Shown here: positions 730 through 29,014 of the stretch, piece by piece
Numbering within the stretch: position 1 is the stretch's first letter
How the letters are laid out: every line of letters starts with the position of its first letter
Origin: a virus
Virus record (IMG/VR): IMGVR_UViG_3300028025_004714
Location: 1 to 33,946 of that record
Direction: 5' to 3' (one strand)
DNA: 33,946 nt
Position numbers and translations under genes: made by a program
The notes under the pieces: model-generated
Told to the model about the DNA's origin: nothing
The model's input: the letters and a program-made list of their open reading frames with translations, nothing else
Databases searched by the model: none

Positions 730-1317
730 ATGAAATTTAAACTTACATCAGAATATATTGAAAAATACGGAAGAAAAGCTTTTAAAATTGAAGCCACATG
801 CGATTTTGATCTTCCTTTTCCTTTTGGAAAAGTTAAAAAGGGAGACAAGGGCGGGTATGTCGAAAAAGAGGAATTTCTTTCGCAAACTAACAAAGGTTGG
901 GCTTTCGAGAATAGCGAAATCTGGGGCGGCGTAATCTATGACGGCGTAATCAGGGGCGGCGAAATCTGGGGCGGCGAAATCTGGGGCGGCGTAATCTATG
1001 ACGGCGAAATCTGGGGCGGCGTAATCAGGGGCGGCGAAATCTGGGGCGGCGTAATCTGGGGCGGCGTAATCTGGGGCGGCGAAGATATATTTTTTATTGG
1101 TCACGTGGGTTCTAAAAAAAGAATATTAACCGCCACAAGACAAAAAGACGGATCGTATTTGATTTATCGCGGTTGTTTTAAGGGATCTTTAGAAGATTTT
1201 AAAAGTTCTGTGGTAAAAAAATATAAGGATACGGACGCGGGAACCCTTTATTTAAAAATCGCGGATATTATTGATTTTCATTTTTCAGTTTTACACCCAT
1301 ACAAGGAAAGAAATTAA
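730..1317 (+). CDS. Pentapeptide-like repeat protein (195 aa)
   Basis: A three-part phage protein. The N-terminal part (about 1-60) has the pattern KAFKIEAT ... VKKGDKGGYVE, which I recognise from phage proteins that continue into repeat-built beta-helices. Residues 63-117 are eleven perfect-length five-residue repeats of consensus [EV]-I-[WYR]-[GD]-G. With glycine two places before the central isoleucine, the repeat mimics the small-x-Leu/Phe logic of pentapeptide-repeat beta-helices, although the A(D/N)LXX consensus is absent. A non-repetitive domain of about 75 residues follows (IFFIGHVGSKKRILTATRQ onward). The role is unknown. The near-identical DNA repeats suggest copy number can change by slippage. 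The ATG has a GAAAGTGAAA site upstream. Confidence 0.75.
   Translation: MKFKLTSEYIEKYGRKAFKIEATCDFDLPFPFGKVKKGDKGGYVEKEEFLSQTNKGWAFENSEIWGGVIYDGVIRGGEIWGGEIWGGVIYDGEIWGGVIRGGEIWGGVIWGGVIWGGEDIFFIGHVGSKKRILTATRQKDGSYLIYRGCFKGSLEDFKSSVVKKYKDTDAGTLYLKIADIIDFHFSVLHPYKERN
916..1080 (+). repeat. Eleven tandem 15-bp repeats inside a coding region
   Basis: Eleven in-frame 15-base units run without interruption. The types are GAAATCTGGGGCGGC, GTAATCTATGACGGC, GTAATCAGGGGCGGC and GTAATCTGGGGCGGC. They encode EIWGG, VIYDG, VIRGG and VIWGG. The order E, VIYDG, VIRGG, E, E, VIYDG, E, VIRGG, E, VIWGG, VIWGG (E = EIWGG) shows block duplication. Units of the same type are identical at the DNA level, so the array expanded recently. 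Confidence 0.95.
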
Positions 1318-1318
1318 A

Positions 1319-1732
1319 ATGTCTAAAAAACCAATTATCGTTAAAAACGCATACTATCGGGATATGAAAGCAAAGCAAGGGGTAGCGCGTAAAAAGCAGC
1401 TTGCACCTGTGACGGCTATCTTTGACGTAGTGTGCTGCGCGGCTGTGACTTATGGCTTCTGTGCAATCATTATCGCAGCGTATCCGAATGGCAATCAGGC
1501 GGCAATCAAAGGCGATGCACTTCCGGATGCTGAATACATGGACATGACCGGCATAGATCAGGGCGTATCGGATGCAGGGCTTGAATATTTTCCTCCGGAG
1601 TACGAAGAAAAGGAAATTCCGGTACCGCGTGAAATGCCTGAAGAAATTAAGCTTAAACGTGAAATTCATGCGGATAACCGAGAATTTGCCGCGCAACTCG
1701 AAGAAGCTCTGACAACGAAAGGGGCTGAGTGA
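1319..1732 (+). CDS. Single-pass membrane protein sharing a motif with an ejection protein (137 aa)
   Basis: The protein has a basic N-terminus (residues 1-29, many Lys/Arg), one hydrophobic segment at about 30-54 and an acidic tail to residue 137. By the positive-inside rule the tail should face the periplasm. Residues 65-88 contain GDALPDAEYM, then GVSDAGL. Almost the same pair of blocks occurs in the late 409-residue ejection-type protein at 14822-16051. The ATG at 1319 is chosen for the AAGGAAAG ribosome site; an upstream extension of the frame overlaps the previous gene and lacks one. It overlaps the next gene by one base (TGATG). I know no family for it; superinfection exclusion is only a hypothesis. 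Confidence 0.75.
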   Translation: MSKKPIIVKNAYYRDMKAKQGVARKKQLAPVTAIFDVVCCAAVTYGFCAIIIAAYPNGNQAAIKGDALPDAEYMDMTGIDQGVSDAGLEYFPPEYEEKEIPVPREMPEEIKLKREIHADNREFAAQLEEALTTKGAE

Positions 1733-4743: not shown

Positions 4744-4917
4744 ATGAAAATTACTTTAATTGCAATATTCGGGCTTTGGATTAACCCCGTGAATATCGCC
4801 TATATGCGCCCTGTTGGTAATGAATGCAAGATCGTTTTTACAGATCAAAAAAGCGTTACAGCCCCCGCAAAATGCCATGACGTGAACGAGCAAATAAAAA
4901 AGAAGTTAAAGGAATGA
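4744..4917 (+). CDS. Small protein with hydrophobic N-terminus (57 aa)
   Basis: Residues 1-20 (MKITLIAIFGLWINPVNIAY) are hydrophobic and may be a weak signal or anchor. Two cysteines, Cys28 and Cys44, follow in a short polar domain; if exported they could form a disulfide. AAAGAGAAAG lies upstream, and the stop overlaps the next start (ATGA). Not recognised. Confidence 0.5.
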   Translation: MKITLIAIFGLWINPVNIAYMRPVGNECKIVFTDQKSVTAPAKCHDVNEQIKKKLKE

Positions 4918-5162
4918 TGGTGAGTGATATGATTTTAGCTTCAATCATTATTTATATTTGTGGATTTATAGCCGTGTTTTCGCAGCTTGAGCGAACCCTG
5001 CAAGCACAACCAGTTCTCAAAGGCACGGTGCTTGTGCCGAAAGAGCCGACAGAGGAGATGATAAGCGTCGCCTACTCAAAGAAACATACAGCTTGGCAAA
5101 ATGGTCATTCAAACTGCGAGCTTTATCATGCAATGATAGCCGCAGCACAGAAGGGTGAGTGA
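4914..5162 (+). CDS. Membrane-anchored small phage protein (82 aa)
   Basis: One membrane helix at about residues 5-24 is followed by a soluble module with VLVPKEPTEEMIS and LYHAMIAAAQKGE. That VP-EPTEEM ... Y-AMIAA pattern recurs at the ends of many small phage proteins without a known role. Three ATGs are possible (4914, 4917, 4929); 4914 overlaps the previous stop. Helix and module together suggest a membrane-tethered partner. Confidence 0.65.
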   Translation: MMVSDMILASIIIYICGFIAVFSQLERTLQAQPVLKGTVLVPKEPTEEMISVAYSKKHTAWQNGHSNCELYHAMIAAAQKGE

Positions 5163-5163
5163 T

Positions 5164-5352
5164 ATGGATGAGATACCAACCATAGTTCTTGTATTTCTTG
5201 TATTGTTTACTGGAACTTTTATGGGAGCAGCTTTCGTGCTGATTACACATCCGAGTATCAATCAAGGAATGGCAGCCATAGAAGCCTGTGAAGCATCCCT
5301 ACCCCGCGATAAATCCTGCGAGGTGGTTATAACTGCGAAAGTGAGGGAATGA
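5164..5352 (+). CDS. Small inner-membrane phage protein with PRDxxC motif (62 aa)
   Basis: An N-terminal helix (about residues 6-28) is followed by ACEASLPRDKSCEVVITA, a CE--LPR---C pattern I have seen in small phage membrane proteins of unknown function. The two cysteines flank the motif and could pair in the periplasm. The ATG at 5164 is chosen over the GTG at 5155 because AAGG then sits at a workable distance. The stop overlaps the next ATG. Confidence 0.65.
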   Translation: MDEIPTIVLVFLVLFTGTFMGAAFVLITHPSINQGMAAIEACEASLPRDKSCEVVITAKVRE

Positions 5353-5495
5353 TGGAAACCGCTAAAGAAAAATTAATAGCACTTTTAACAGACACGTCCG
5401 ATGGTATAGAGCTTGTTGATTTTAAGTGTTCTTTAGGATGTGACGTAAAACGGCTACTAAACGAGAAAAAGGAAGAACATGATGGAAATTACTAA
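5352..5495 (+). CDS. Small hypothetical protein (47 aa)
   Basis: ATG overlaps the preceding stop (TGATG), and the frame ends 17 bases inside the next gene. The protein is mixed-charge with Cys26 and Cys30 (KCSLGC). No family recognised. Coupling to both neighbours is the main support. Confidence 0.5.
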   Translation: METAKEKLIALLTDTSDGIELVDFKCSLGCDVKRLLNEKKEEHDGNY

Positions 5496-5676
5496 AAAGA
5501 TATTAAGTATTATTTTGTTATTACTCATGATTATTTTCGTAAGTATAAGAATTGCCGAAGACAATAGTTTATTAATGGGTTGTGGTGTAGCGGCTGAAAA
5601 AATAGAGCAATTATGTTCTTCATATCCCGACCATAGTGCATGTAGTGACGGTTTATTTTTAGGTGGGGCTGAATGA
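5479..5676 (+). CDS. Small exported or membrane protein with cysteines (65 aa)
   Basis: A strongly hydrophobic segment (IILLLLMIIFVSI, about residues 10-23) follows a Lys-Lys start, then a short domain with Cys35, Cys46 and Cys55. This fits an uncleaved anchor with a periplasmic disulfide-containing tail. It is one of four consecutive small genes of this design (4744-5676). Function unknown. Confidence 0.55.
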   Translation: MMEITKKILSIILLLLMIIFVSIRIAEDNSLLMGCGVAAEKIEQLCSSYPDHSACSDGLFLGGAE

Positions 5677-6871: not shown

Positions 6872-7014
6872 GAAAGCTACTACACTCAACGGCACTTTGC
6901 ACAACAATGAAAATTCCTGATGTTTGGAAAGCGATAAAGCATGATGGAACGGTTACAGTACCAAAAGGTAAGAAAATTATTGTCCAAGGGGGTTACTATA
7001 TGGTGATGGAATGA
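6868..7014 (+). CDS. MRKLL microprotein 1 (48 aa)
   Basis: First of three consecutive small genes that each begin with ATGAGAAAGCT and encode MRKLL. This one continues HSTALCTTMKIPDVWKAIK and has only one cysteine. It overlaps the upstream stop by four bases (ATGA). The rest (TVTVPKGKKIIVQGGYYMVM) looks beta-rich. Its shared start, but different body, suggests recombination at the 5' end. Confidence 0.55.
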   Translation: MRKLLHSTALCTTMKIPDVWKAIKHDGTVTVPKGKKIIVQGGYYMVME

Positions 7015-7148
7015 GAAAGCTACTATGTTGGGCAGGCATAAGAAAATGTCCAAGACTTTGTAGAATATTCGACCACCCACCAAAAAAACTATCTATGAAA
7101 AGATGGTTTTGGATATGTGACTGTAATTGTAGAAGAGTTAGAAAATGA
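7011..7148 (+). CDS. MRKLL microprotein 2, cysteine-rich (45 aa)
   Basis: Begins MRKLLCWAGIRKCPRLCR and ends WICDCNCRRVRK: six cysteines in 45 residues and strongly basic. The MRKLLC-W start resembles the small prophage proteins of the DUF1660 type (MKRLLC--GHKW ... C-RCG), which look like miniature zinc fingers. Starts on the ATGA of the previous gene and ends on the ATGA of the next. Confidence 0.6.
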   Translation: MRKLLCWAGIRKCPRLCRIFDHPPKKLSMKRWFWICDCNCRRVRK

Positions 7149-7267
7149 GAAAGCTTCTATGTTGGATGGGGTGGCATGATTGGCATTTGAACTTATGCGA
7201 TTGTAAACGATGCCTTAATAGAGGATGGTGCAAACACTGCGGAAAGGAAAAACTATGCAGAAAATAA
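7145..7267 (+). CDS. MRKLL microprotein 3, DUF1660-like zinc knuckle (40 aa)
   Basis: Begins MRKLLCWMGWHDWHLNLC, followed by C-x2-C (CKRC) and C-x2-C-G (CKHCGKEKLC). This is the closest of the three to the DUF1660 pattern of a tryptophan/histidine start and paired zinc knuckles. It overlaps the following gene by 13 bases. Function unknown; nucleic-acid binding is plausible from charge and zinc ligands. Confidence 0.65.
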   Translation: MRKLLCWMGWHDWHLNLCDCKRCLNRGWCKHCGKEKLCRK

Positions 7268-11739: not shown

Positions 11740-13245
11740 TTAATACTCATATTGAATGTTGACGTTACCCGCATCGAAAGTATCAGGCGTGACCGATGTG
11801 ATACTGATTATATCAGCAACGCCGGCTAAAGCTATATGCCCGTTGCCGGTTGTGACGCTATCAACCGTCCCGGTGTTTGAGGCTGACCAAGTCGCGCTCC
11901 AAAGGAATGTAGCGGCATCGGATAAGGTTAATATCATCGCGCCGTCTACTGTACCTGCCGCCAGAACGCCTACAGCCATATTAAAGCCGTTTGTCTGTGG
12001 CGCACTACCTGAAACACCGATAGCCTGCGCGTAGCCCACATATCCGCTTGTGGATACCGTTGTGACCCCGATCCGGACTAAAAGATTGCTTGTGCCGTTC
12101 GTTGAAACGCCGATAGGTGTAATGATGATTTTCTTTACGCCTGCAGGGATTGCAAATGTCTTGCTTGTGCCGCTTGTCGTTGCCTGCATCGTTCCGTTAA
12201 TCGTTCTAGATTTTGTGGCTTCCTGATCGACATATTCCTTTGTGGTTCCGTCAAAAAGCACAACGTTCTTTGAAAGAGTCGCGTCATAAATAGAGCCGAC
12301 AAATCTTTGTGTGTCGCTAAGCGTAATGTCCAGAGCTTGTGGCACGAAGAAATTGCCTGTGTTGTGTTTAACAACCACGTCACGGCTGGAATTTGCCGCG
12401 CGCAACAAGAGCATTTGACCGCTTTCAATGCCCGCCGTTGTGTCCAGATCGTCCGTTGCCGCAGCCGCTTGAGTGTCAACCGTGTGAACCGTCCCCGTGG
12501 GTGTTATAATCCCCGTGGCGATCGTCAATGCGCCGTCATCCGGGTATTTTACACGCCCATTAAAGACGACCGAACTTGAAAAGGTGTTTGTATTTGTGAA
12601 CGTGTTGGCTTGAGTGAGTTTGACGGTCTGTTCAAGCAATGTGATCCAGTTTGTGCCATCGGAAAACAGAATAACGCCCTCGCCCTGTTCAACCGTTTTT
12701 GTGCCTGCGCCGTCAATCGTTTCTGCTCCGTCCGCGTCAAGTGTCGTTGTTCCGCTGTCTGAATTTTTGACCGCGAATGTAAATCCTTCGCCTGCCTGCG
12801 CCGCCGATAAAAGCGATAATGTTGGGCTTGCAGTTGTGACAATAAGCTGATTTTCATAGGCTGTTGTGATTGTGGTGTTCGTGGAAATATAGACAACTTC
12901 ATCGCCGAAAGCATTGGCGCGAGTTCCTGAAATGTCGTCCAGCGTCCAGAATGTCGCGCCGTCCGCGTCTTTCAAAACAAATTTATATGAGCCATCGCCA
13001 AGCCACACATTACCGTAGCCTTCACTGTCCAGCACAATCGGGTTTGTATTGGATACAGTTTCCGCCGCCGTGGTGTATGTCGTCTTGTTTGTTGTCGTTT
13101 GCGCTTCATAGGTATAGAGCTTGCAGCCTGTGCATGGATCGCCGTTATCATCAAACGCGCGGAACGGTCCTTGCGGCGCAAGCTGGCCGGCATAAGCAGG
13201 AAGTGCGGCAAAGATTAAGAAAAGTGCGAGTAAGATTTTTTTCAT
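11740..13245 (-). CDS. Tail fiber-like protein with N-terminal signal peptide (501 aa)
   Basis: Residues 1-19 (MKKILLALFLIFAALPAYA) are a textbook Sec signal with an AYA cleavage site before Gly20. The next 90 residues contain GCKLYTYEAQTTT, NPIVLDSEGYGNVWL and WTLDDISGT, a module widespread near the start of phage tail fibers. Then follow beta-rich repeats with VILFSDGTNW, a coiled or triple-helix-like linker (TQANTFTNTNTFSSSV) and a C-terminal beta domain. The signal peptide is unexpected for a virion component. Overlaps the upstream ejection gene by four bases (ATGA). Confidence 0.78.
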   Translation of the reverse strand: MKKILLALFLIFAALPAYAGQLAPQGPFRAFDDNGDPCTGCKLYTYEAQTTTNKTTYTTAAETVSNTNPIVLDSEGYGNVWLGDGSYKFVLKDADGATFWTLDDISGTRANAFGDEVVYISTNTTITTAYENQLIVTTASPTLSLLSAAQAGEGFTFAVKNSDSGTTTLDADGAETIDGAGTKTVEQGEGVILFSDGTNWITLLEQTVKLTQANTFTNTNTFSSSVVFNGRVKYPDDGALTIATGIITPTGTVHTVDTQAAAATDDLDTTAGIESGQMLLLRAANSSRDVVVKHNTGNFFVPQALDITLSDTQRFVGSIYDATLSKNVVLFDGTTKEYVDQEATKSRTINGTMQATTSGTSKTFAIPAGVKKIIITPIGVSTNGTSNLLVRIGVTTVSTSGYVGYAQAIGVSGSAPQTNGFNMAVGVLAAGTVDGAMILTLSDAATFLWSATWSASNTGTVDSVTTGNGHIALAGVADIISITSVTPDTFDAGNVNIQYEY

Positions 13246-14822: not shown

Positions 14823-16051
14823 TATTCAACAACTGCCCTTCTTCCACCGATCATAAGGATTGTTCCTTTCGGAAGATTAGCGGCTTCCGCTTCTTGCAAT
14901 GTGCTATATGAATTTTGCTCTGATTTTGGCAATTCACCAAAGTTTTCTTTGTAATAATTTTCAAGCATATCCTGATTTTTTAGAAAGAAACCTTCAATAT
15001 TATTAAGCTCTTTTTCCAGCATTGCGGGGCTTGTAAATTGGTCAAGATTTGCCACGGAATTCTCAAGTGCGCTAAATTCTTGAAAGCTTGTTGAACCAAG
15101 ACCGGACGCTCCACTCGCAGAAAGATTTTTCAATTCTGACAACGCATTTAGTGCGCTTTTGCTTTTAAGCTTTGAAAGAGTGTTTGCAAGCGACCTTGCT
15201 TCCGACTCTGGCAATGCCTGCAAAGATGCGCCGTAACCGGTGCTGAAAGGAGTAATCAGGTTTTTAGCGTCAAGCACGTCTTTCATGACAGATTGAAGCT
15301 TTGCCCTACCGGATAAGATTTTGTTTTTCTCTACAGGTTGAGACTCATCTTTCTTGAGTGCGCTTTCACCCTTTTTTATTGTTAATTGCTTTGCAACATC
15401 AACATTCGCCGCGCCCACGTCTTTTTGACCTACAGGGCTTTGTGAATACGCATCAGAGGCAGGGGGGAGTGCGCTCGGCTCATTTGTTGCCAATCCGGCA
15501 TCACTTATGCCAGTGTCATCAAGCGTCATATATTTTGCATCGGGAAGCGCATCGCCGCCATTCAAAACCATATTTCGGAATTGATCGGGTTGCATTGTCT
15601 CATCTTGAACAGGCATTGAAAGAAGCTGTTCTCTTTTGCTCATTGGCGCAGATACAGGCTGCCCCGCGTCTACAGCAGGAACTTGCGCAGAACCGCCGAC
15701 ATCATTTGCATTCAAAAGTTGCGCAAATGGGTTTGCCGTTGTCCTCGGAACAAGATTTCCTAGCGCATCTTGCGAGTATTCAGTCTTGTTGCCTTCCATC
15801 GCCGCACGTGCTTTTAACCGCGCCAGAATGTTTGGGTCTTTGTTTCCTGCTTGGTATGCTTGAACGTCTCTCAAAGACTGCTCATCCATCGTTAAATCAG
15901 GATTTGCAGCCTTATGTGCTAACGTTTTATCGAATTGCTTCTGATCCTGATATTGCGCGGCAAGCTGCAACAGCATTTGCCTGCGGTTTTGATTTTCGTT
16001 CTGCATCAAAGCAGTTTTGTTCTGGATGATATCCGCGCCGAAATTAGCCAT
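14822..16051 (-). CDS. Putative ejection-machinery protein with shared GDALPDA motif (409 aa)
   Basis: Helical N-terminal half, low-complexity middle, and a C-terminal region (about 270-409) that I recognise from podoviral internal or DNA-transfer proteins: a GYGASLQALPESEA start, a central GASGLGSTSFQE block and a final LPKGTILMIGGRRAVVE. Residues 166-187 carry GDALPDAKYM ... TGISDAGL, nearly repeated in the early membrane protein at 1319-1732. The ATG at 16051 overlaps the stop of the homing endonuclease gene; a GTG three bases upstream is also possible. Confidence 0.72.
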   Translation of the reverse strand: MANFGADIIQNKTALMQNENQNRRQMLLQLAAQYQDQKQFDKTLAHKAANPDLTMDEQSLRDVQAYQAGNKDPNILARLKARAAMEGNKTEYSQDALGNLVPRTTANPFAQLLNANDVGGSAQVPAVDAGQPVSAPMSKREQLLSMPVQDETMQPDQFRNMVLNGGDALPDAKYMTLDDTGISDAGLATNEPSALPPASDAYSQSPVGQKDVGAANVDVAKQLTIKKGESALKKDESQPVEKNKILSGRAKLQSVMKDVLDAKNLITPFSTGYGASLQALPESEARSLANTLSKLKSKSALNALSELKNLSASGASGLGSTSFQEFSALENSVANLDQFTSPAMLEKELNNIEGFFLKNQDMLENYYKENFGELPKSEQNSYSTLQEAEAANLPKGTILMIGGRRAVVE

Positions 16052-16617
16052 CACACACGCTCCATCTTTAAAGATTCGCTGTATTCAGAATATCTTGCAA
16101 ACTCTTTATGATATTGAATTGACAATGATTTATATAGTTGAATAGCTTCTTTTAATGTCAACACTCTTTTTCTTATAAAGATATCTTTGAATTTAAACTG
16201 TACAACATATTTATTTCTTTTTTCATCATAAGATACGCCCTTTATCCCAAGTTTATTATCTGATCTTACGGGCTTATTGCATTCGTTTTGGCTTCTATCT
16301 GCCTCGCGCAAATTTAATATACGATTGTCCGATGCGTCCATATTCACATGATCTATTTCTTTTTCTGGTTCATACCCGTAATAAATTAACCATGCAATTC
16401 TATGAGCAGGATAAGAAATATTATCTATGCACAGAGTAATACTAATACACTTGTCATTTCTATAGTGTTTGTACCCCGTTTGTTTTCCAGCATGCTTTAT
16501 ATTCCATGATTTCCCATTTTTAATATTTTCTGATCTTTGTTTCCATGTAAAAATTCCAGAATCAGGGTTGTAATCTAAAACATCTAATATTCTTTGTAAT
16601 TGAGGTAATTTTCTCAT
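16051..16617 (-). CDS. Free-standing HNH homing endonuclease with AP2-like domain (188 aa)
   Basis: The HNH core is clear: AHRIAWL at 71-77 and EIDHVNMDASDNRILNLR at 87-104, with Asp89/His90 and Asn98 as metal and catalytic residues. An AP2-like DNA-binding segment follows (LGIKGVSYDEKRNKYVVQF, from 123). This is the usual HNH_3 plus AP2 plan of phage homing enzymes that cut intron- or gene-free alleles. The gene is visibly more AT-rich than its neighbours and sits between two ejection-protein genes, so it is probably a later insertion. Frame intact. Confidence 0.9.
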   Translation of the reverse strand: MRKLPQLQRILDVLDYNPDSGIFTWKQRSENIKNGKSWNIKHAGKQTGYKHYRNDKCISITLCIDNISYPAHRIAWLIYYGYEPEKEIDHVNMDASDNRILNLREADRSQNECNKPVRSDNKLGIKGVSYDEKRNKYVVQFKFKDIFIRKRVLTLKEAIQLYKSLSIQYHKEFARYSEYSESLKMERV

Positions 16618-16618
16618 T

Positions 16619-17479
16619 TTAAACCTTCGTCATTTCTAAGCCCAGCATTTCGTAGTTTACCATTTTATAGCCGTTTTTGTGTATTTTCACGGCGTCAGGG
16701 TCTGTTTTCTCAATTTCATCGGCAAGAACACCACGATAACGACCGCTACCATCCTTATAATCAAACTCATAAATGTTATGCCCTTTTTCTTTGCCTACAT
16801 GAATGATGTTTTCTTTTAGGCGCGAATCCGACAAAGCATAAGCCTTAGTTGCAAGTCCGCCAAGACTTATTAAATTGCTGAATGCGCTTTGACGTCTAGC
16901 TGCTTTATCAGCCTGCGCAGAAAGATTTATTTGCGATGCTTGAGAATTTAAATCTGTGACGGCATTTGCGTAGTTTTGACCTATTGCCGCCGTTTGACCC
17001 GCCGCGTTTTGTCCGCTTCCAGAAATACCTGCAAGCATGTTGTAGGTACGATCTTTGTTTTGAGCATCCATGTTGAACGCGTTTGAAAATTCGTTTGAAG
17101 CCAGACCTTGCGAATACTTTAAAAGATCTTGGATTGTCGATGGTGAAGAATAACGACCACCAGCCGCATTTGCGCGGTTTATAGCTTGTTCGCCTTGGTC
17201 AAGATTAAACTGGTAATTCGGGCTTTCCTGAAACTGATCTTGTGTGAACGGATCATTAAGCGAGCCGTATTCATTTGTTCCCGCGCCATTATCACCGATT
17301 CCCAAAAGCATCGAAAGCTTGCTTAAACCCTGTTTGCCCGTGTCCAGCCACGGCATAACATCCGCGCGGCTCTGGTCGTACATCTCTTTTTCAAGGCGCA
17401 ATGATTTATTGATCATCTCCTCGGAATAACCCGTGTTCATTTTACCGCCGCCGCCTAGTATTCCTGATAAAAAGCCCAT
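16619..17479 (-). CDS. Ejection-type protein with C-terminal S74 chaperone-like domain (286 aa)
   Basis: The start MGFLSGILGGGGK and the Gln/Ala/Asn-rich helices (about 30-200) resemble P22 gp7-like DNA-transfer proteins. Residues 215-286 have the peptidase S74 intramolecular-chaperone pattern: SDSRLKENI with Ser217 and Lys222 in the catalytic spacing of five, then GRYRGVLADEIE, DPDAV and MVNYEMLGLEM. S74 domains normally trimerise and release tail spikes by self-cleavage; here cleavage after Ala216 would leave a 216-residue virion protein. The domain is short for S74 and may have lost activity. Confidence 0.75.
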   Translation of the reverse strand: MGFLSGILGGGGKMNTGYSEEMINKSLRLEKEMYDQSRADVMPWLDTGKQGLSKLSMLLGIGDNGAGTNEYGSLNDPFTQDQFQESPNYQFNLDQGEQAINRANAAGGRYSSPSTIQDLLKYSQGLASNEFSNAFNMDAQNKDRTYNMLAGISGSGQNAAGQTAAIGQNYANAVTDLNSQASQINLSAQADKAARRQSAFSNLISLGGLATKAYALSDSRLKENIIHVGKEKGHNIYEFDYKDGSGRYRGVLADEIEKTDPDAVKIHKNGYKMVNYEMLGLEMTKV

Positions 17480-17491
17480 ATCAATCCTCTT

Positions 17492-17761
17492 TTAAGATAT
17501 TATAGCGCGATCTGTGCATCTACGCCAGTTTACACCATCAGAAAACGCGATAACAGCCCCGCCGCTTTCGTTTGACACATATATTATATTTCCCTCATAT
17601 AAAGCCGCGCTCGGTACAGCCGCAACCAAATACGATTTTAACGGAAAAGGCGCACCGCCGATAAGTCTTTGCAGATCCTGAAACCATGCCGCCCAAATAC
17701 TACCGCATGTTCCGTTTGCGCTAATTTGCTGCTTGAGTGGCGGGGGTCTAAATCCTGTCAT
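17492..17761 (-). CDS. Small structural protein with SDGxNW module (89 aa)
   Basis: The C-terminal 40 residues (LYEGNIIYVSNESGGAVIAF then SDGVNWRR) are a module found at the ends of many phage tail and head-tail proteins. The N-terminal half is short and proline-rich, with a Trp-rich helix. It lies between gp10-like and the S74-tailed protein genes and is probably a tail or collar component. The ATG overlaps the stop of the gp10-like gene. Confidence 0.68.
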   Translation of the reverse strand: MTGFRPPPLKQQISANGTCGSIWAAWFQDLQRLIGGAPFPLKSYLVAAVPSAALYEGNIIYVSNESGGAVIAFSDGVNWRRCTDRAIIS

Positions 17762-19164
17762 GTTCCGTACAACCCATGTATTGACACCTCTACAGGTTCA
17801 CTGATTGCAAATTTTAATACAAATCCACGCGGTGAACCTAAGCGATCCCACTTCACGCGCTTTCTGAATTCGCCCTGCTTGCCGATTGATTTCCAGCGTT
17901 CCGCGCCGTAAGTATTGCCTAAATCCTTTGAAACTTGCAAAACTATCTGCGGATCTTCGCATTCTGCGTTACCTACGCCCGTTTTCATGCTCAAAACAAG
18001 CTCGTTTATCTCTGTTCTATCCATTTCTTGCGATAAAACAGGACAAATACGCGTTCTATGTATCTTTTTCGTGCCGTCTTTGTAGTAGTTTAGTTTCATC
18101 TTATATATGTTTCCGTTCTCCCGATCACCAACAAGATGTGAACCGTTAAAGAACGTATGACACGATCCAAGGTGCAGCTCTTCACTATTTGTAACATCGT
18201 TGAAATATGTCCGTTCGTGCCAGATTTTCGTTGAGGCATCAAAAACCCATGTTGAATTAAGCCCTACGACTTGGAGCATTAAAAATTCATGCCCTACAGT
18301 TTTATAAGTCCAAATGTACGCGCGTGAAATATCAACAACGCTTGCAAGAGCTTCTTCAACAGCCGCATTCGATATGCGTACAGGGCGATAACCTTCGGAA
18401 ACCTGATAGACGTACCGCCCGCCTTCTTTGTCCTCACCAAGCCAAACCACGTTATTATCAAAGCTGCACCGTGCATGAGGGGCGGCAATACCGACTTGCA
18501 TGACCGCTTGAGAAATGCGCGTAAAAACAGGCGTTGAACCTGTGTTGTAATAGACCTCAACAGTGCTCGAACCGAATAAGAACAGTTCGCCGTGATCCGA
18601 AAGTAATGAAACAAGGCTATCAGGTGCGCTTTCGACTGCAATCCTATCCAGAGCCGCCCACGTGAACCCATCGCCGTTAGCTGAAATCATAAAGTCGCCC
18701 GTAGACGGATCATTCACAATGAAATACGTGTCTTGAAAATCGCAAACTGTCGCGCCGTTCGGGAAATCATTATCACTAATTTGTACAAAGGCATTGGTTG
18801 CCAGCGTCAAGATGTAACCATTCACGCCATCAACCATCATGACTTGCGTACCATTCGCAGCGAGAGAAACACGGGTAATCGCGCTGTTCAATGTGCCGCG
18901 CTCTGTCGCTACACCAAGAGCAGAAATTTCATAAAGCTTATTGCCGGATACGAAAAAGCAACGACCGCCTTCCGTTGTCAAGCATCCGCGATGCGGGCCA
19001 CCCCCTGCTACAGTGTAAGGCTCAAGCCCCGGCGTGCCGACCAATCGCGCAGGGGTTTTAGAAGAGCCGCTTTCAGATAGTTCGGCAAATAAGTTTACGC
19101 AACGCTGGGCATCGTATGAAAGGTCTGTCAGTGCATAACTCTGTCCAACAATCGGTATCTGCAT
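17758..19164 (-). CDS. P22 gp10-like packaged-DNA stabilisation protein (468 aa)
   Basis: Head-to-tail completion protein that plugs the portal after packaging. The start contains VGQSYALTDLSYDAQRCVNL and then TPGLEPY, the opening blocks of the P22 gp10 family. Length is 468 against 472 in P22. Internal strands with WLGEDKEGGRYVYQ and VFDASTKIWHERT fit its beta-propeller-like body. In P22, gp4 and gp10 are neighbours; here a tailspike-type gene lies between them. The ATG follows directly on the upstream stop (TAAATG). Confidence 0.9.
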   Translation of the reverse strand: MQIPIVGQSYALTDLSYDAQRCVNLFAELSESGSSKTPARLVGTPGLEPYTVAGGGPHRGCLTTEGGRCFFVSGNKLYEISALGVATERGTLNSAITRVSLAANGTQVMMVDGVNGYILTLATNAFVQISDNDFPNGATVCDFQDTYFIVNDPSTGDFMISANGDGFTWAALDRIAVESAPDSLVSLLSDHGELFLFGSSTVEVYYNTGSTPVFTRISQAVMQVGIAAPHARCSFDNNVVWLGEDKEGGRYVYQVSEGYRPVRISNAAVEEALASVVDISRAYIWTYKTVGHEFLMLQVVGLNSTWVFDASTKIWHERTYFNDVTNSEELHLGSCHTFFNGSHLVGDRENGNIYKMKLNYYKDGTKKIHRTRICPVLSQEMDRTEINELVLSMKTGVGNAECEDPQIVLQVSKDLGNTYGAERWKSIGKQGEFRKRVKWDRLGSPRGFVLKFAISEPVEVSIHGLYGT

Positions 19165-19485
19165 TTAACCCACCCGAAACCATTTAGCACTGCCGTCTGT
19201 GGTGTAAACATATCTTGCGAATCCACCAACTGCGAGCGTTGTGACCGCGCCTATAATTGTTCCATTTCCAAGTGTCAGAGCTGTTAATATCTGCTCTGAG
19301 GTAATAATAACTTCATCCCCATGTTGCGGGCTGGATGGCATATTCACTGTAAGTGTTGCCAGAGTTCCCGCCGGGCGAATAATAGCATAAACTACCTTTT
19401 CCCGCGTTAAATTAACTGTACCGCCTGTGCTTGGTACAGAAGTTTGAAATGATCTTGCTGTTTCCGAATCTACTGTTGTCGCCAT
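19165..19485 (-). CDS. Small beta-rich structural protein (106 aa)
   Basis: Starts MATTVDSETARSFQTS and is almost all beta, with a Gly-rich end YTTDGSAKWFRVG that resembles the SDG-x-x-W module of other proteins here. The ATG overlaps the tailspike stop by one base; the longer frame to 19500 has no ribosome site. Perhaps a small tail or receptor-binding accessory of the preceding spike. Confidence 0.65.
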   Translation of the reverse strand: MATTVDSETARSFQTSVPSTGGTVNLTREKVVYAIIRPAGTLATLTVNMPSSPQHGDEVIITSEQILTALTLGNGTIIGAVTTLAVGGFARYVYTTDGSAKWFRVG

Positions 19486-22400
19486 TATCCAAGCACCCAT
19501 GTTCCTGTTGAAGAAATAGCCATCCAGTTGGTTGTGTCGATAATAATCAATTCAATACATGAACCTATTGTGGTTGACTCAATGTACCCGCCTGAAGTAG
19601 ACGCAGATGAACCGTTATATATAAAATCACCTGATTGCGCTGTAATTCGTATTCCGTCAGCGTCAATCACACAGGCTTTATAGTTTGACACGCCGTCAGT
19701 CACACTTGCGCTTGGTAAAGTTATATTCGCTTTCGATGTTGAGCCTGTGTTGATGTAAGTATAGTTCGTCTGGTTTGCCAGCGTAGGTGTTGAAGCTACT
19801 CCACCCGTGTCAAGTGTCGTGAGAGGGTATTTCGTAACAAGACCATCGTCAAAACGCGCTATTCCGTTGTTAACAAAAATTGAATATGGATTTGTGATAG
19901 TGACATTCGCTCCTGCTTGCGGAGCATCATCTATGTAGAAAGATGCGGCATCCGTAATTGTACTTGCACCAACAGCAGAATGTGTCGAGTTAAGCATCCA
20001 GAAATCATACTGAGAGGCTAAAGCTCCTGTAGCATGCTCTCGTGTTGCAGAGAAGTCGAGCTTCCAAAGCGGGGCGTTTGTGGAAGCTGTAAGCCCAGTA
20101 TCTGCAGGGGCTGTGTAAGTGACATCAGCCGTTCCCGCTGTACCGTTCGTTGTTGGTGTTAAGGAGAAACTGTACGGCAGCATACGGAAGCGTGTCGTAC
20201 CATCAGAGCGGTCAGGCTGGAAGTTAATTCCGCGCGTTGCCCCGTAACCGCCCAAAACAAGATTACAAGTGCTGTCGGATGCGGTGCAGTAAATAGCCGC
20301 GTTATCCGTTGCGGCAGTCTGCGGCTGGATTGTGACACCAATATCAGATGAAGCAACGCTTGTATCAATATTGAACAGATTGACCGATGAACCCGCTTGC
20401 CGAACGCTGAATGCATTCGCTGTTGTCGCTTCAATCGCCTTCTTTCCTGAAATTCTTGAAACATCGGTTTTTAAATTAAGTGTCGATGCATTCGGGCTTG
20501 TCACTTGCGGCGCAATTGTCGCAACGCTGTTTGTATCCGTCCAGTCTCCGTAATCGTAATATTTCGCTGCCGTAGTATCAAATTCGGTGAATAGCGTACT
20601 AGGGAGGGCGCGATTTCGTATTGAATGCATTTTTTCGATCCGAACTGTTGCTCCGCCGTCATCAGCATCAGAGCCGAGTGTCACAGTTCCGAAATCTGCC
20701 TGAATGACCCAATCCGTGTAACTCCCCGAACCGCCTGTTTTTGAGACGGTAATATCAAGAACGCCTGTTGTACTATCATAATCCGTGACCGTTCCGAGCA
20801 TATAGTTTGAAGGGCTTCCCGCTGAATATGCGAGAACGCTCATTTTAACCCGATAGCGTTCCGATGACTGTGTTGTGAAACTCTTTGAACCTGTTCCGAC
20901 AGAAACGCTTGTAACGCTCGTTCCCTCCAGTCCTGAAACATTCATATTGCGGCGGTCATCAACCACACTTTCAAATTCAAAATTTGTTCCAGGACGTGCA
21001 TAAACCGGCTGTGTAATATCTTTAAACAAAACATTTTGCGCGTAAATTTCTGCGTCAGTTTCTCCGACAATCCCTGTAAACATACCCTCAAATCGCGCGT
21101 TACTAAGGTGTAATTTTGGTTTTTTTGTATTCGTATTGTCTTGAGTAATAAAACTTGAATTTGTATCAGCAATATAAATCCCGTTACTGTCGCTTGTCGA
21201 TTGCGTTGCTGCAACATCATCATTTATGTCATCCAGGCCGCGAATATCAACATTATTAAACCAATACTCGGGCTGCTGAGTTCCGTGATTTGTTGCAACA
21301 ATACGAACCCCTGAATTTCCTCCGTATTGTTTATAGCCGTCAACGTTCATGCTTAAACCGCGCACCTGAATGCAGCGTCCCTCGTATGATCCGAACTGCG
21401 GACCACGTTCCGGCGCAATACACTGGATATTCTTCATTGTCGCTTCTGCGTCCTCTTCGTGCGTATCAAACGCAACCCCGAAAGCCCCGATAGCAAGTCC
21501 GCCGTCAAGCATTGTGTAGACAGGCTGCCCTTTTTGAATAACCGAGCTTCCTGAAGTCAGTTTTGCATTCCAAGTCGCCGTTTGGGCATCAGACGTTCGG
21601 CAATGCCGCCCATTCACGCAAGTTACATTATACGCTGTTGATCCGAATGCTGTGCCGTAGTCAGAATAACCATATCCAAGACCCGTAACATTCGCAGTTT
21701 CTCCGGCTGTTGCTGTCCCCGAAAAAGCGACAAAACCATTCGCGCTCAAATAATTCCCGTAAGTGTCCTTGCATTGGAAAGTGTCGTTTGTTTTATCTGA
21801 CACACGACAAACAATATTATTAAGAGTTTCATATCCGGCAGGCATTCCGGAGAGATAAATCCCGTTTCCTCCGTTAGAAAATCCGTGTGCAACGCTGGTG
21901 AATACTGCAGGGTTTGTTGCAGAAATTGCAGTTATGGTTTTCGGTGTTCCGCTCGCATCATTCGTTCCCATGTTTTTGAGATTGATCGTGAAAAGATTTT
22001 CAATCTTGCTGAAAGGTGAAGATCTGCGAATAATGCACGCATCCCAGACGTCATCGCAGCGCACATCTTTAAACAAAGCATCGGGTATCCCGCGAATATC
22101 GAAAGTCGGATCAGAAACGGTTATTGAAACGTCTGAAGTATCACCGATAGCAATCCCTTTTATTCCCTCAAGAGAGAATTTACGGGCTTTTGTAAATCGG
22201 TAAAGCTGCGGCGATTGAGCGTAATATTCTGAATATTTCAGCGGGGCAGCTAAAAAAATGTAATTATTCGTGGTGTCAATTCCGACAATTTGATTTGCTT
22301 CGCCTGCCCACCCTGGGCTTGAAGCACTTTGCCCGCCGCTTGAATAAGTACCGGTATCGCAATTAACGTCCGTTCCTGCTGTTGTGTCGGTTGCATTATC

Positions 22401-23315
22401 CAAAGCCTGCAATGTGAGTTTTGTAGTCGTGCTTGCGCCTGATCCGTCTCCAAGCGTTACATTGTATGTGCGCCCTAAACCGTCTGATCCGTCAATATAG
22501 TCAATTTTAGTCCCCGCTACGGTTGCGGTCACACCCTTAATCATTATGCGAGATGTTGCAGAATAACCATGAGAACCCGTAAAAGTGACAACACATTTTG
22601 AATTTACGCCGTCCCATGCAACGCTTGAAATTGTCTTTTTTGTTATGTCGCTACTGTCAAAACGCGAAGCAATCGCAATGCTGTCGTGAATCTTTACAAT
22701 ATCTCCTATAGAATATCCTGATACGCTTGCAACGGTCAGGCGCGGCAAAATATCATCCAGATTAATATTCGCGGTAGTTACCGCCGTAATCTCAGTTTGA
22801 CTTCCCAGAACAACATTATCATCAGGATGATAAAGAATTGCCGAATCCGTATTGATATGCCCAAAATCACACCGCCCCGTTGCAGCACACTTGATTTGCA
22901 TATCCGTGGTGTTCTTTATGCCCGCACCAAGATCTGAAAGCTTTAAACAGCTTCCGGCAGGAATTGTCGCAAAGCCATCATGCGCGACGAGGAACGCTTC
23001 AAGCTCGTCTGTCATATCCGTGGTGCATGTGTCGTCTGTCGGAACGTAGTAATTTGGATCGCCGACAAAGGAAATTGCGTTTATTGCAGCATCAATATAG
23101 GGCTGCGCCAGTTCTTCAAGCTCATCAATCCAAACCGTTTCGTCTGCCTGTCTGTCGCGCAGCGCATTGTCAATATTCGCGGTGAATGAACCATCCGGAG
23201 CTGAATTTGTAAGAACCGCATCAAGGTCTGTTTTCCATTGTGTTCTGTCCGCGCTGGCTGCATAAACCTGCGTGGAAACCAAAAGAAGAAATAGGAATAA
23301 GAATTTTTTAATCAT
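19485..23315 (-). CDS. Giant tailspike-like protein with signal peptide (1276 aa)
   Basis: Starts at MIKKFLFLFLLLVSTQVYA, a strong Sec signal with probable cleavage after Ala19. The frame continues upstream to 23504, but that part overlaps the gp4-like gene without a ribosome site. The N-terminal part has ATIPAGSCLKLSDL, as in the caps of right-handed beta-helices. The middle, with SNARFEGMFTGIVGETDAEI and YAQNVLFKDITQPVYA, fits helix coils of a pectin-lyase-like spike. From residue 1140, TNPYSIFVNNGIARFDDG and the end IIDTTNWMAISSTGTWVLG are modules of phage fiber tips. No catalytic pair assigned. Confidence 0.78.
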   Translation of the reverse strand: MIKKFLFLFLLLVSTQVYAASADRTQWKTDLDAVLTNSAPDGSFTANIDNALRDRQADETVWIDELEELAQPYIDAAINAISFVGDPNYYVPTDDTCTTDMTDELEAFLVAHDGFATIPAGSCLKLSDLGAGIKNTTDMQIKCAATGRCDFGHINTDSAILYHPDDNVVLGSQTEITAVTTANINLDDILPRLTVASVSGYSIGDIVKIHDSIAIASRFDSSDITKKTISSVAWDGVNSKCVVTFTGSHGYSATSRIMIKGVTATVAGTKIDYIDGSDGLGRTYNVTLGDGSGASTTTKLTLQALDNATDTTAGTDVNCDTGTYSSGGQSASSPGWAGEANQIVGIDTTNNYIFLAAPLKYSEYYAQSPQLYRFTKARKFSLEGIKGIAIGDTSDVSITVSDPTFDIRGIPDALFKDVRCDDVWDACIIRRSSPFSKIENLFTINLKNMGTNDASGTPKTITAISATNPAVFTSVAHGFSNGGNGIYLSGMPAGYETLNNIVCRVSDKTNDTFQCKDTYGNYLSANGFVAFSGTATAGETANVTGLGYGYSDYGTAFGSTAYNVTCVNGRHCRTSDAQTATWNAKLTSGSSVIQKGQPVYTMLDGGLAIGAFGVAFDTHEEDAEATMKNIQCIAPERGPQFGSYEGRCIQVRGLSMNVDGYKQYGGNSGVRIVATNHGTQQPEYWFNNVDIRGLDDINDDVAATQSTSDSNGIYIADTNSSFITQDNTNTKKPKLHLSNARFEGMFTGIVGETDAEIYAQNVLFKDITQPVYARPGTNFEFESVVDDRRNMNVSGLEGTSVTSVSVGTGSKSFTTQSSERYRVKMSVLAYSAGSPSNYMLGTVTDYDSTTGVLDITVSKTGGSGSYTDWVIQADFGTVTLGSDADDGGATVRIEKMHSIRNRALPSTLFTEFDTTAAKYYDYGDWTDTNSVATIAPQVTSPNASTLNLKTDVSRISGKKAIEATTANAFSVRQAGSSVNLFNIDTSVASSDIGVTIQPQTAATDNAAIYCTASDSTCNLVLGGYGATRGINFQPDRSDGTTRFRMLPYSFSLTPTTNGTAGTADVTYTAPADTGLTASTNAPLWKLDFSATREHATGALASQYDFWMLNSTHSAVGASTITDAASFYIDDAPQAGANVTITNPYSIFVNNGIARFDDGLVTKYPLTTLDTGGVASTPTLANQTNYTYINTGSTSKANITLPSASVTDGVSNYKACVIDADGIRITAQSGDFIYNGSSASTSGGYIESTTIGSCIELIIIDTTNWMAISSTGTWVLG

Positions 23316-24072
23316 ATGTGTCACCGTATGTATCTCCATAAACGCCACCTCCGCCGCCACCATCGACCGCATCATCTCCGCCAATATAAAGCCCTCTGCG
23401 TCTGCGCCCCATAGGCACGCAAATTCGAGCCTCCATAAACTTGTTTTTTCTATTTGCCCTGCGTATATCGGCAAGTCCGCTTTCGGCAATTTCGATCTGC
23501 TCAACTGTCAATGACTTGCCGTAAATGCCTGCGATTCGCATGGCAAAATTATATTCTATCGTTTCTTCGTATCCGGGCGGCAACGATATAACCTGTGAAA
23601 GACCGGTGAACTCTGTCAAAGGCTGATTGACGTACATAAAAAGCGTTTCTGCGGCATTCGGTACACCCCAAAGATTTATAACGCCGACCGGATATGTCGG
23701 GTTGTAATAAAGATATTGCGGCGAAGCAGACGCATCTTTTCTGTAGATTCTCGCAAACTTCGCATTGTCGATTATTTCAACCGGTGTATCACTGCTCGCC
23801 GCATCACGGATATAAGCAACTTTAATACTTACAGGTCTCACGGTGTCAATGTCTGCGTCTGCGCCTATCGTGTAGCTTGCAACGCCGGCACTTAAAACAT
23901 GAGAAAGGAGCGTATCGCTGTAAATCATCGCATCGCGCGTCCCCCATGTCGAAATCATGCGGTTGAGGCGTTTAAAATGCCCCGCAATCTCTTGAGCGTC
24001 AATATCCTCTACAGGGTCAACAACCCTGATCAATTCTAAAGCAGCTCTGATTAAATCGCGGGGCGTTGTCAT
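23308..24072 (-). CDS. P22 gp4-like head-tail adaptor (254 aa)
   Basis: Tail accessory factor that binds under the portal. The N-terminus (MTTPRDLIRAALELIRV, then GHFKRLNRMISTWGTR) and the middle SLPPGYEETIEYNFAMRIAGIYG follow the P22_Tail-4 pattern. It is longer than P22 gp4 (166), ending in a Gly-rich tail with GGGGGG and a repeated YGDTYGDTYD. No transglycosylase signature was identified. Eight bases overlap the tailspike start. Confidence 0.85.
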   Translation of the reverse strand: MTTPRDLIRAALELIRVVDPVEDIDAQEIAGHFKRLNRMISTWGTRDAMIYSDTLLSHVLSAGVASYTIGADADIDTVRPVSIKVAYIRDAASSDTPVEIIDNAKFARIYRKDASASPQYLYYNPTYPVGVINLWGVPNAAETLFMYVNQPLTEFTGLSQVISLPPGYEETIEYNFAMRIAGIYGKSLTVEQIEIAESGLADIRRANRKNKFMEARICVPMGRRRRGLYIGGDDAVDGGGGGGVYGDTYGDTYD

Positions 24073-25968: not shown

Positions 25969-26817
25969 TCATTTGACTTTATACTTTTTCAGCAAATCCT
26001 TGCCGCTCAAAGCATTGTCAGACTTAAAGCCTGATGTTTGAGGGACTCGGGAAGGCGGATTCGGTAACTGTTTTTGTTGAGGGGATGCTTGGGATTTTCT
26101 GATTTTCTCAAGCACACTGTCTATTTTTGATAGTCTTTCCGGAAACATTTCATCAGCAAGGGCGGGATCTTTGGCTAACGCATACAAAACTTGAGGGGCA
26201 TCTTTTCCCGTAATGATCTTGTTCAAAGCTCGTGCTACCGCAGGGGTTTGAGGCAAAGAATCATAAAGATCAGCTACCAAGTCATCGTAATCAGGGTTTT
26301 CAGCCGCGAAAGCATCTTCTTTTGCGCCTAATTCCTCAATAACTTTATTTGATGACTCTTGTTGTTTTTGTTGCGTTTGCTTCTTTTCATCGGCTGCTTT
26401 CGCATCATTCGCTTTCTTTTCGCGCTCAAAAAGCTTTTGATCCACTTTCCAATCGGTCAAAGCCTCATGGTATTCGTCATCAAAATCAAAATCTTCCTTT
26501 TTAGGGCGTGGCTTTTCAGCCGTGGCACTGGCAGAGGATTTCTTTTCCTGTTCGTTCTTCCACGCCTCAAATTCGGCAAGCTTTGCCTCTGCTGTTTTGG
26601 CGCGGTAAGTGAGTTGGTCAATGCGTTTTTCATAGCGTTTGGAAGCGTTACGATTTTCCTTTTTTGCTGGTTTCGGAGCTTGATCCTGACTTTCGTCACT
26701 ATCGTTTTCGCTCTCATCGCTCGCAGTGTCATCGTCATGAGTCGTATCCGATGGCGCGGCGTTGTCATCGGGCGTTAAAATTGTAGTGTCAATATTTTGG
26801 TTATCTTCATCAGACAT
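25969..26817 (-). CDS. Scaffolding protein (282 aa)
   Basis: Highly acidic N-terminal half (DDDTASDESENDSDESQDQ), central coiled coil (about 68-160), and a basic helical C-terminus (SGKDLLKKYKVK) of the type that in P22 binds coat protein. Length is 282 against 303 in P22. The location between portal and coat genes is the standard one. Overlaps the portal end by eight bases. It should leave the procapsid before DNA entry. Confidence 0.85.
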   Translation of the reverse strand: MSDEDNQNIDTTILTPDDNAAPSDTTHDDDTASDESENDSDESQDQAPKPAKKENRNASKRYEKRIDQLTYRAKTAEAKLAEFEAWKNEQEKKSSASATAEKPRPKKEDFDFDDEYHEALTDWKVDQKLFEREKKANDAKAADEKKQTQQKQQESSNKVIEELGAKEDAFAAENPDYDDLVADLYDSLPQTPAVARALNKIITGKDAPQVLYALAKDPALADEMFPERLSKIDSVLEKIRKSQASPQQKQLPNPPSRVPQTSGFKSDNALSGKDLLKKYKVK

Positions 26818-29014
26818 TTTGGATTCCTTGTTCGGGGATGTTCATCGCATTTTGTGGGGCTTGCGAAGGAATGCCCTCATCTTCACTAAGAAGAAGCTCT
26901 AAAGCGGTTCGTGCATCATTATTGCCCGCTTGCAGTTCCTGAATTGTAGATAAAATGTTCGGTAAAACATTCGCTGGCATTGTTCCTATTTCAGCTTGCG
27001 CTTTGTAGAACTCTAATTCCGCTTGGAACGCTTTTATCTTCACTTCCTGTTCTTTGATTGTATTTTGCTCTTTTTTGATCTCAAAGTCCATATTTTCCGC
27101 ACGCTCTTTAGAATCGAGCTGTTTTTGAAGTTCCACAAGCTGATTTTTAAAGAGGTCTACAGCCTGCTGCGCCTTCATCAATGCCATTTGTTCCGGCGTT
27201 TGTTCGTCATCAGCAACGCCAGGAGGAAGTGCTTTCTTAAGACGTTTAGCAATTTCCTTCATGCCAGGTGCATCAATATTTGAGGCAATCAAATCAGCCG
27301 CAACGCTCATGACTTCGGGCATAAGTTCGGCAAGCTGTAGCTGCGCCTCAAGGGATTCTTGGCGCTTCGATGCGTAGGACGGCCCCACCGTAACATGCGT
27401 GGTATACGTTCCTTTTTCCATGTCATAAACGCCCATTGTCTTTTTGCCGTCGCGCTTGATTTCTGTCGGCTGGTTAATGGAAATTCTTTCTTCTTTCCTG
27501 TCTTCGCCGACAACACGAACATTTTGCTTATCAACAAAAAGTTTACTGATAAGATCGTTCACAATATCGCCGACCGCGCACACTGATTTTGATTGATTAT
27601 CGATGTAGTGATAGCTTGCCGTATCGCCTTGGCGTTGGAGTGCCAGAATTGCTTTGCCTGATCTATCCTGATTTGTTTCCTTGCCTTGGCTGGCATCATA
27701 AATGCCTGTCACGCTTTTCATGTATTCGGAGGCGTTAAGCGCAGATTGAACCATAGCCATACTTGGCTGCGCGGGCGGTTGCCTCATTGGCGGCGGATCA
27801 GGAAATGCTTGCCCGTTTTTGATTGTTACTGTGGGTTTGTAAGACAATACAGGGTAATTTTTAGTATTAGCGTCTTTCCACATTTCTTGATATTCATCAA
27901 TTTGACCCTCTGCCACAACCCACGGAGATTTCGGCTGCAATGCGACAACTTCCGTGTGCGATGATTCCCAATAGTTCAGCATGATTTGCGGATCGCGCAT
28001 CACGGAGATAAGCCCTGAAATGTGACGCTTTCCATTGTTCCAAATTGTGTTTCCATACACTGGAACGATCGGGATACGTTCACCAAGCCAGTCAGTTTTC
28101 TCAAGAATTTCTTGCCCGTTCGTTTTGCACCATTTCACAAGATCAACTTTTTCATCCCTTGATCTGGTTATGTAGACACGTCCTGAAAACGGATCACCGT
28201 CTTTGAGCTTTTCCACTTTATACCCGAGCTTTTGTTCAAGCTCTTTTCGATCAGATTCGCGCAAAACGTCAAGCTGTCCGTTCATTGAAACTTCGTGAAG
28301 TTTTTCTATTTCACATTCAATGTAATAATATTCACAGACAACGACTTGCTTGTCCTTAACCCATGCCTTGCCGCCACCATCGAAGTCAATTACTTGCGCA
28401 TCGGGGTACTGCTCTTTGAACTGTTCTTTGCTCATGGCAGATTGAATAAATCCGTACCGCGCATCGCGCCCGTCAAGCTCAACAGAGGACGGATCAATCA
28501 AAATACGCGAAAAGTCATGGACGGTATCGATGATAATTTTTTGCTTAAAAGTGCCTCTAACCCAGTCTGTGCGGACTGTAATCCATCCCAAACCAGCGGT
28601 AACCTGAAACGCGGCGGCGACATCATACGCAGTATCAGCTTTAGAAGCTTTTTCAGCTTTCCTGATTATGCCAGCGCGGACTTCGCCTGTTTCTTCGTCG
28701 GCATCATCGTCATCTGGAAGAACGTGAATTGAAGGACGCGAAGCCCTCATTTCATTGATAATGTTGTTAACGAATGACGGGCATTTATTGATTACAAGCT
28801 TAACTTTGTTAGGGCAGTCCTCGGGGAGATCTTCCCAGTGACCCTCGCCCAAAGCAAAATCAATATCGGATTCCATTTGAGTATAAAACTCACCCCAATA
28901 GGTCTTTGCTGTTTCGTAGTTTTCACGAATTTGAGTCAACAGCTCTTCGTTTTCTTCGCTGTCTGTTTCTTTCTCTGTATTTTCGTTTTCGTAGTCGTTC
29001 ATGCTGCCTGCCAT
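26810..29014 (-). CDS. Portal protein, P22 gp1-like (734 aa)
   Basis: Dodecameric vertex ring for DNA packaging. Length is 734 against 725 in P22. Recognisable blocks include VVNKCP-like VINKCPSFVNNIINEMRASRP near residue 65-85, LIDPSSVELDGRDARYGFIQ and MLNYWESSHTEVVALQPKSPW. The C-terminal 130 residues are a long coiled helix (ALMKAQQAVDLFKNQLVELQ onward), matching the barrel of P22-type portals. The ATG at 29014 has only a weak AGGCG site; an ATG at 29002 is possible. Follows the terminase by 31 bases. Confidence 0.92.
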   Translation of the reverse strand: MAGSMNDYENENTEKETDSEENEELLTQIRENYETAKTYWGEFYTQMESDIDFALGEGHWEDLPEDCPNKVKLVINKCPSFVNNIINEMRASRPSIHVLPDDDDADEETGEVRAGIIRKAEKASKADTAYDVAAAFQVTAGLGWITVRTDWVRGTFKQKIIIDTVHDFSRILIDPSSVELDGRDARYGFIQSAMSKEQFKEQYPDAQVIDFDGGGKAWVKDKQVVVCEYYYIECEIEKLHEVSMNGQLDVLRESDRKELEQKLGYKVEKLKDGDPFSGRVYITRSRDEKVDLVKWCKTNGQEILEKTDWLGERIPIVPVYGNTIWNNGKRHISGLISVMRDPQIMLNYWESSHTEVVALQPKSPWVVAEGQIDEYQEMWKDANTKNYPVLSYKPTVTIKNGQAFPDPPPMRQPPAQPSMAMVQSALNASEYMKSVTGIYDASQGKETNQDRSGKAILALQRQGDTASYHYIDNQSKSVCAVGDIVNDLISKLFVDKQNVRVVGEDRKEERISINQPTEIKRDGKKTMGVYDMEKGTYTTHVTVGPSYASKRQESLEAQLQLAELMPEVMSVAADLIASNIDAPGMKEIAKRLKKALPPGVADDEQTPEQMALMKAQQAVDLFKNQLVELQKQLDSKERAENMDFEIKKEQNTIKEQEVKIKAFQAELEFYKAQAEIGTMPANVLPNILSTIQELQAGNNDARTALELLLSEDEGIPSQAPQNAMNIPEQGIQNV

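Follow-up and report, generated by a model that had tools for sequence, protein, structure and literature searches.

Why does a small predicted membrane protein of a phage carry a segment that is almost repeated in an ejection-type protein of the same phage? The question arises from an uncultured phage known from a linear IMG/VR virus record, which was analysed here as a whole (33,946 bases, hereafter the window). A gene at the left of the record, in an operon of early type, encodes the membrane protein, and its partner belongs to the virion genes of the opposite strand. The reading that we favour, at a rough probability of 0.35, is that the early protein is a membrane-tethered copy of a docking motif of the phage's own ejection conduit, probably serving superinfection exclusion.

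The virion module is of the P22-like class, as indicated by a P22-like portal and a gp10-like head closure protein (Hc3), which show 31-41% identity with the portal and gp10 of known podophages. The genes between 0 and 7.7 kb are of early type and read rightward (among them an HTH regulator, a DnaA-type HTH protein and a YqaJ exonuclease), and the stretch from 33.6 to 7.8 kb, with terminase, portal, coat and tail genes, is transcribed leftward. The gene scan found no integrase, and most replication genes are absent as far as annotation goes, which suggests that the virus record may be incomplete. The features on which the argument relies are collected in Table 1.

Table 1. Position of the two motif copies, of the proteins that carry them and of other features of the window.
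Feature	Position	Strand	Basis or remark
Early membrane protein, 137 aa, orphan	1319..1732	+	Translation, hydropathy, single-sequence AF2
Early motif copy GDALPDAEYMDMTGIDQGVSDAGL, residues 65-88	1511..1582	+	Starts about 10 residues beyond the TM helix
Late motif copy GDALPDAKYMTLDDTGISDAGL, residues 166-187	15491..15556	-	Disordered linker
gp20-slot ejection (conduit-type) protein, 409 aa	14822..16051	-	Cassette position; C-terminal profile matches
gp16-slot ejection protein, 526 aa	13242..14822	-	Position; weak phrog_21712 match
gp7-like DNA ejection protein	16619..17479	-	phrog_598 E=3.3e-32
gp10-like head closure Hc3	17758..19164	-	phrog_578 E=6e-119; PF11134; anchors the P22-like virion module assignment
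P22-like portal	26810..29014	-	PF16510 E=2.7e-146
Proteins with Sec-signal-like N terminus	11740-13245; 31044-31646; within 19485-23504	all -	

Both proteins contain GDALPDA[E/K]YM followed by G[V/I]SDAGL, with 17 matched residues over 22-24; the near-repeat described in the first-pass annotation is therefore present, in sequence and in place. Compared as a pair alone, the two proteins give a BLASTP E value of 3e-7 (17/29 identical), and E=8e-5 is obtained against all ORFs of the genome. Their Smith-Waterman score is 77; 5000 shuffles that preserved composition averaged 32.7 +/- 5.0 and went no higher than 59 (Gumbel P=7e-6). After correction for about 1,200 protein pairs the significance becomes 4e-4 (BLAST) to 8e-3 (Gumbel). 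Among all proteins of the window this is the second-highest scoring pair, the highest being formed by two composition-biased structural-type proteins (11740-13245 and 31044-31646). In addition, GDALPDA is the only 7-mer that two proteins of the genome have in common. The likeness stops abruptly at the edges of the motif, and the extra residues of the gapped alignment are unconvincing. A low-complexity or common string, which had been named at the outset as the explanation to eliminate, is rejected: the entropy of the motif is ordinary (3.40 bits; 24-mers of the same protein average 3.34), and matches to its pattern elsewhere are few and outside phage context. The sharing is real and unusual, and it is from this sharing that we infer a function.

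The conservation had been placed at the protein level on the grounds that the codons differ, and codon statistics bear this out. Codon pairs for the same residue are identical in 6 of 14 cases, where the codon usage of this phage predicts 4.8 +/- 1.7, and nucleotide identity over the aligned same-residue codons is 31, with 31.1 expected. Since codon agreement is no better than usage predicts, synonymous sites are saturated if the copies are homologous. One serine is encoded by TCG in the early copy and by AGT in the late copy. The best DNA alignment covers the first block (25/30 nt), a value that codon-order shuffles reach in 0 of 400 cases; with codon identity at expectation, this identity is explained by the peptide. 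Within these first 30 bases, five nucleotide changes alter only one residue. In a neutral simulation, P is about 0.01 when the first block is taken alone and below 1e-4 when the two are taken together, for a pair that was chosen for its peptide similarity. Taken together, codons no more alike than chance, the TCG/AGT serine and the small number of residue changes indicate that the peptide has been under selection. Selection could equally have produced such sequences by convergence, and either way it would be the peptide, not the DNA, that matters.

Two other origins of the likeness were considered and rejected. For a recent DNA duplication, no DNA repeat linking the copies was detected with an 11-nt seed, and the synonymous sites are saturated. 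Antisense ORFs of 162 and 223 aa lie opposite the early and late genes, and one antisense frame is also alike (MYSASGSAS/IYFASGSAS), because the wobble positions coincide. The sense frames fit better (9/10 plus SDAGL 5/5, with the TCG/AGT serine) and are accompanied by a ribosome-binding site and an operon context.

The early protein owes this label to strand and operon position only. Its gene has AAGGAAAG upstream and overlaps the next gene in TGATG. Its description as a membrane protein agrees with hydropathy, which reveals one hydrophobic stretch at about residues 29-54 (maximum 19-residue Kyte-Doolittle value 2.27), and with the single-sequence AF2 model, in which residues 29-54 form a helix; both predict one TM helix, which would suit an inner-membrane location. 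The first 30 residues contain 9 K/R and 1 D/E, whereas the region after the TM helix contains 8 K/R and 20 D/E. According to the positive-inside rule, this charge distribution suggests an N-in/C-out orientation, which would place the motif just outside the inner membrane, on the periplasmic side to which it had been assigned. The motif itself lies in a segment without predicted structure. The AF2 models of the early and late proteins are single-sequence models with a mean pLDDT of 57-58, used only for the pattern of helix and disorder.

Other genes of the early operon have features of their own. Directly upstream of the early membrane gene, the gene at 730-1317 (+) contains a tandem pentapeptide array (EIWGG/VIYDG) in 15-nt units; a relative of it on contig L125 (L125:4950-5549) matches the YdcK beta-solenoid repeat. 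Four further small predicted membrane proteins are encoded in the operon (2104-2337, 4914-5162, 5155-5352 and 5479-5676, all +). They had no Pfam-type, NCBIfam or PADLOC match where searched, and have no strong segment in common with the ejection proteins.

The partner of the early protein, whose length of 409 aa and residue numbers are counted from the second ATG, had been called ejection-type, and its surroundings agree: in a P22-like ejection cassette it occupies the gp20 slot. This cassette lies downstream of gp10 and comprises three genes (gp7-like, gp20-slot and gp16-slot), and the late protein is encoded between the other two, after an HNH-type insertion. Twenty (20) other records whose gp10 is related show the same order, with ORFs of similar size after the gp7-like gene. 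The C-terminal region of the late protein matches phrog_25769 and phrog_27813, neither of which has a function in PHROGs. Its single-sequence model has helical N- and C-terminal domains and a disordered middle, with a pLDDT below 50 in segments 165-179 and 181-235. Slot, C-terminal profile match and predicted helical domains would be compatible with a putative conduit protein. The late protein is like P22 gp20 and the T7 gp15-type conduit proteins in occupying the gp20 slot, whereas its sequence similarity to P22 gp20 is weak (z about 3) and no other phage of the compared set has its middle region.

Two of these 20 related phages have an enzyme domain midway along the protein in the gp20 slot: a Peptidase_M23 domain at residues 276-366 of the 570-aa protein of L105 (L105:547-2256), and a phage lysozyme at residues 236-351 of the 597-aa protein of L132 (L132:6895-8685, -). 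The presence of a peptidoglycan hydrolase in mid-protein in two relatives suggests that the middle of gp20-slot proteins acts in the periplasm. Modules that act in the periplasm appear to be accommodated in this region, and a periplasmic role of the motif would agree with that. The L105 and L132 proteins are also, in their own right, an example of mural hydrolases moved into a tunnel protein. Elsewhere in the cassette, the gp7-like protein of the window ends in a Peptidase_S74 domain (PF13884, residues 217-265), an intramolecular chaperone better known from tail spikes and fibres, and a gene between the gp7-like and gp20-slot genes (16051-16617, -) is, from its translation, of the HNH/AP2-type homing endonuclease-like kind.

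In the exclusion reading, the motif of the conduit protein, located in a flexible linker, would be exposed in the periplasm after ejection, where it would be a docking element for the conduit subunits or for an envelope partner that they must reach. The tethered copy would take the docking site, and a second phage of the same type could then not build a working conduit. This would amount to superinfection exclusion at a SieA-like target, but through mimicry by a self-motif: the phage would display the docking segment of its own conduit on the inner membrane, and exclusion would automatically be matched to phages with the same conduit. We regard this last step as possible rather than likely. 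For the gp20 tube, a SieA study favours an arrangement of extended subunits whose equal segments lie side by side and hold them together through lateral contacts (PMC10883804); a tethered segment could join or cap such lateral contacts, or it could occupy the site on the envelope partner. As the copy would stand outside the inner membrane, it is proposed that the assembly of progeny virions in the cytoplasm is left undisturbed. The authors of the SieA study found it hard to understand how the interaction persists given the diversity of SieA and of the ejection proteins (PMC10883804). If true, copying a motif of the own conduit into an early membrane protein would be a simple specificity rule for exclusion, and it would indicate the part of a gp20-type conduit that, on the periplasmic side, is functionally exposed.

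SieA of P22 is an inner-membrane protein that blocks DNA entry; escape mutations lie in gp16 and gp20, the gp16/gp20 ejection conduit is its proposed target, and the motif FxRYPxEAxxFNK is conserved in it (PMC10883804). Like SieA types A-C, the early protein is a phage-encoded membrane protein (predicted) of a P22-like phage. However, the SieA types have several TM helices and FxRYPxEAxxFNK, and their gene lies between genes 16 and 9, whereas the early protein has one TM helix, lacks this motif, is encoded in the early operon and has a segment of 22-24 residues in common with its own conduit protein. That the early protein could itself be a SieA was rejected on similarity, motif, gene position and number of TM helices. 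Its alignment with P22 SieA scores 25 (shuffle mean 26), it has no Pfam, NCBIfam or PADLOC match, and FxRYPxEAxxFNK does not occur in the window, the one fragment match (TRYPLL) being in a non-coding frame. With regard to position, the early gene is at 1.3 kb, and tail-type genes follow the gp16-slot gene.

The idea that P22 SieA uses the same device was likewise rejected, as no segment is common to SieA and gp7, gp16 or gp20. The known case thus carries no segment of its targets, which counts against mimicry, and as a precedent it covers target and location. Two further systems are presented in the sections of PMC10883804 drawn on here: Ltp of the Streptococcus phage TP-J34 and gp15 of HK97, membrane-linked exclusion proteins directed at tape-measure or DNA-channel proteins. 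They belong to siphophages, Ltp is a Gram-positive lipoprotein, and the early protein is likened to them by description; in the same sections, no self-motif is described for either.

The distribution of the motif was surveyed with the pattern DALPDAxYM, with the leucine codon written as YTN, which Phe also fits. It gave 0 matches in viral contigs and five in 84,980 species genomes, none of which has phage surroundings: two are short frames and the others, by our reading, a long flavoprotein-like ORF and two PAS/kinase-like ORFs. Two-block patterns with either spacing had 0 matches in viral contigs, a tblastn search of phages with the motif segments retrieved none even at E up to 10, and the motif was not found in the other phage or plasmid proteins searched. 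The early protein had no family match, and no relatives of it were found in phages, plasmids, viral contigs or 43 gp10-related records, collections that may omit records very near the window, or in 398 genomes of one phylum taken as a guess at the host. Similarly, phmmer found no homologue of it at 64 YqaJ exonuclease loci or 80 gp10 loci, and contig L125, which has the relative of the neighbouring solenoid gene, has no matching membrane gene. A survey of all ORFs in 20 further P22-like genomes at E <= 0.05 brought up no early/ejection pair that is credible and comparable to this one. The motif pair is seen in one genome only, and the lack of matches elsewhere suggests that it is rare or lineage-specific.

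This restriction to a single genome, to orphan proteins and to one phage among its P22-like relatives argues against the exclusion reading, and other explanations have to be weighed with it. The motif may be a docking or processing signal that one envelope protein (a protease or chaperone of the periplasm, or an inner-membrane factor) reads in both proteins and that the early protein uses for maturation or host takeover, with no exclusion. A short linear motif in disordered regions of two proteins of the same predicted compartment would suit such a signal, a host enzyme may have to cleave gp20 of P22 (review PMC8954989), and the host inner-membrane protein YajC is required for P22 injection (PMC10883804). 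We consider this quite possible, if less likely than exclusion; against it, 17 matched residues over 22-24 are long for a protease site, and no further phage or plasmid protein carrying the motif was found, although a common host factor would lead one to expect some. It is rather unlikely that the likeness is a relic of module shuffling, in which a gp20-like fragment was captured long ago into the early gene, or both copies came from a third gene, and they have no joint function today. Ejection proteins are indeed highly mosaic (PMC10883804; PMC8954989), the motif has sharp edges and the identity of the first block lies above the codon-shuffled controls. However, saturated synonymous sites together with kept residues imply that both copies have been selected since they separated, and the search with the 11-nt seed yielded no repeat.

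Chance or convergent resemblance is unlikely, yet not negligible in one genome read for oddities beforehand, where correction leaves a significance no better than about 4e-4 to 8e-3. Against it stand the longest word common to proteins of the genome, the order of the two blocks, which is kept in both proteins, the E value of the pair and the lack of a comparable early/ejection pair in the 20 related genomes. The early protein could, finally, bind the parental conduit and seal the membrane or pace DNA entry, acting after expression of the first genes and not against a second phage. This is improbable in our estimation; the early position of the gene, the common compartment and the release of K+ upon P22 ejection (PMC10883804) are in its favour, but the same data equally allow exclusion.

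Two minor observations concern other parts of the window. Towards the end of the early operon, in sequence that appears to be non-coding, a 22-nt direct repeat (21 identical) occurs at 7010-7031 and 7144-7165, with its copies 134 nt apart. On the late strand, three proteins have N termini that resemble Sec signals (MKKILLALFLIFAALPAYAG..., MKNIKKYFLLVAALAIALPFVAIAG... and MIKKFLFLFLLLVSTQVYAA...), which is unusual for virion-type genes.
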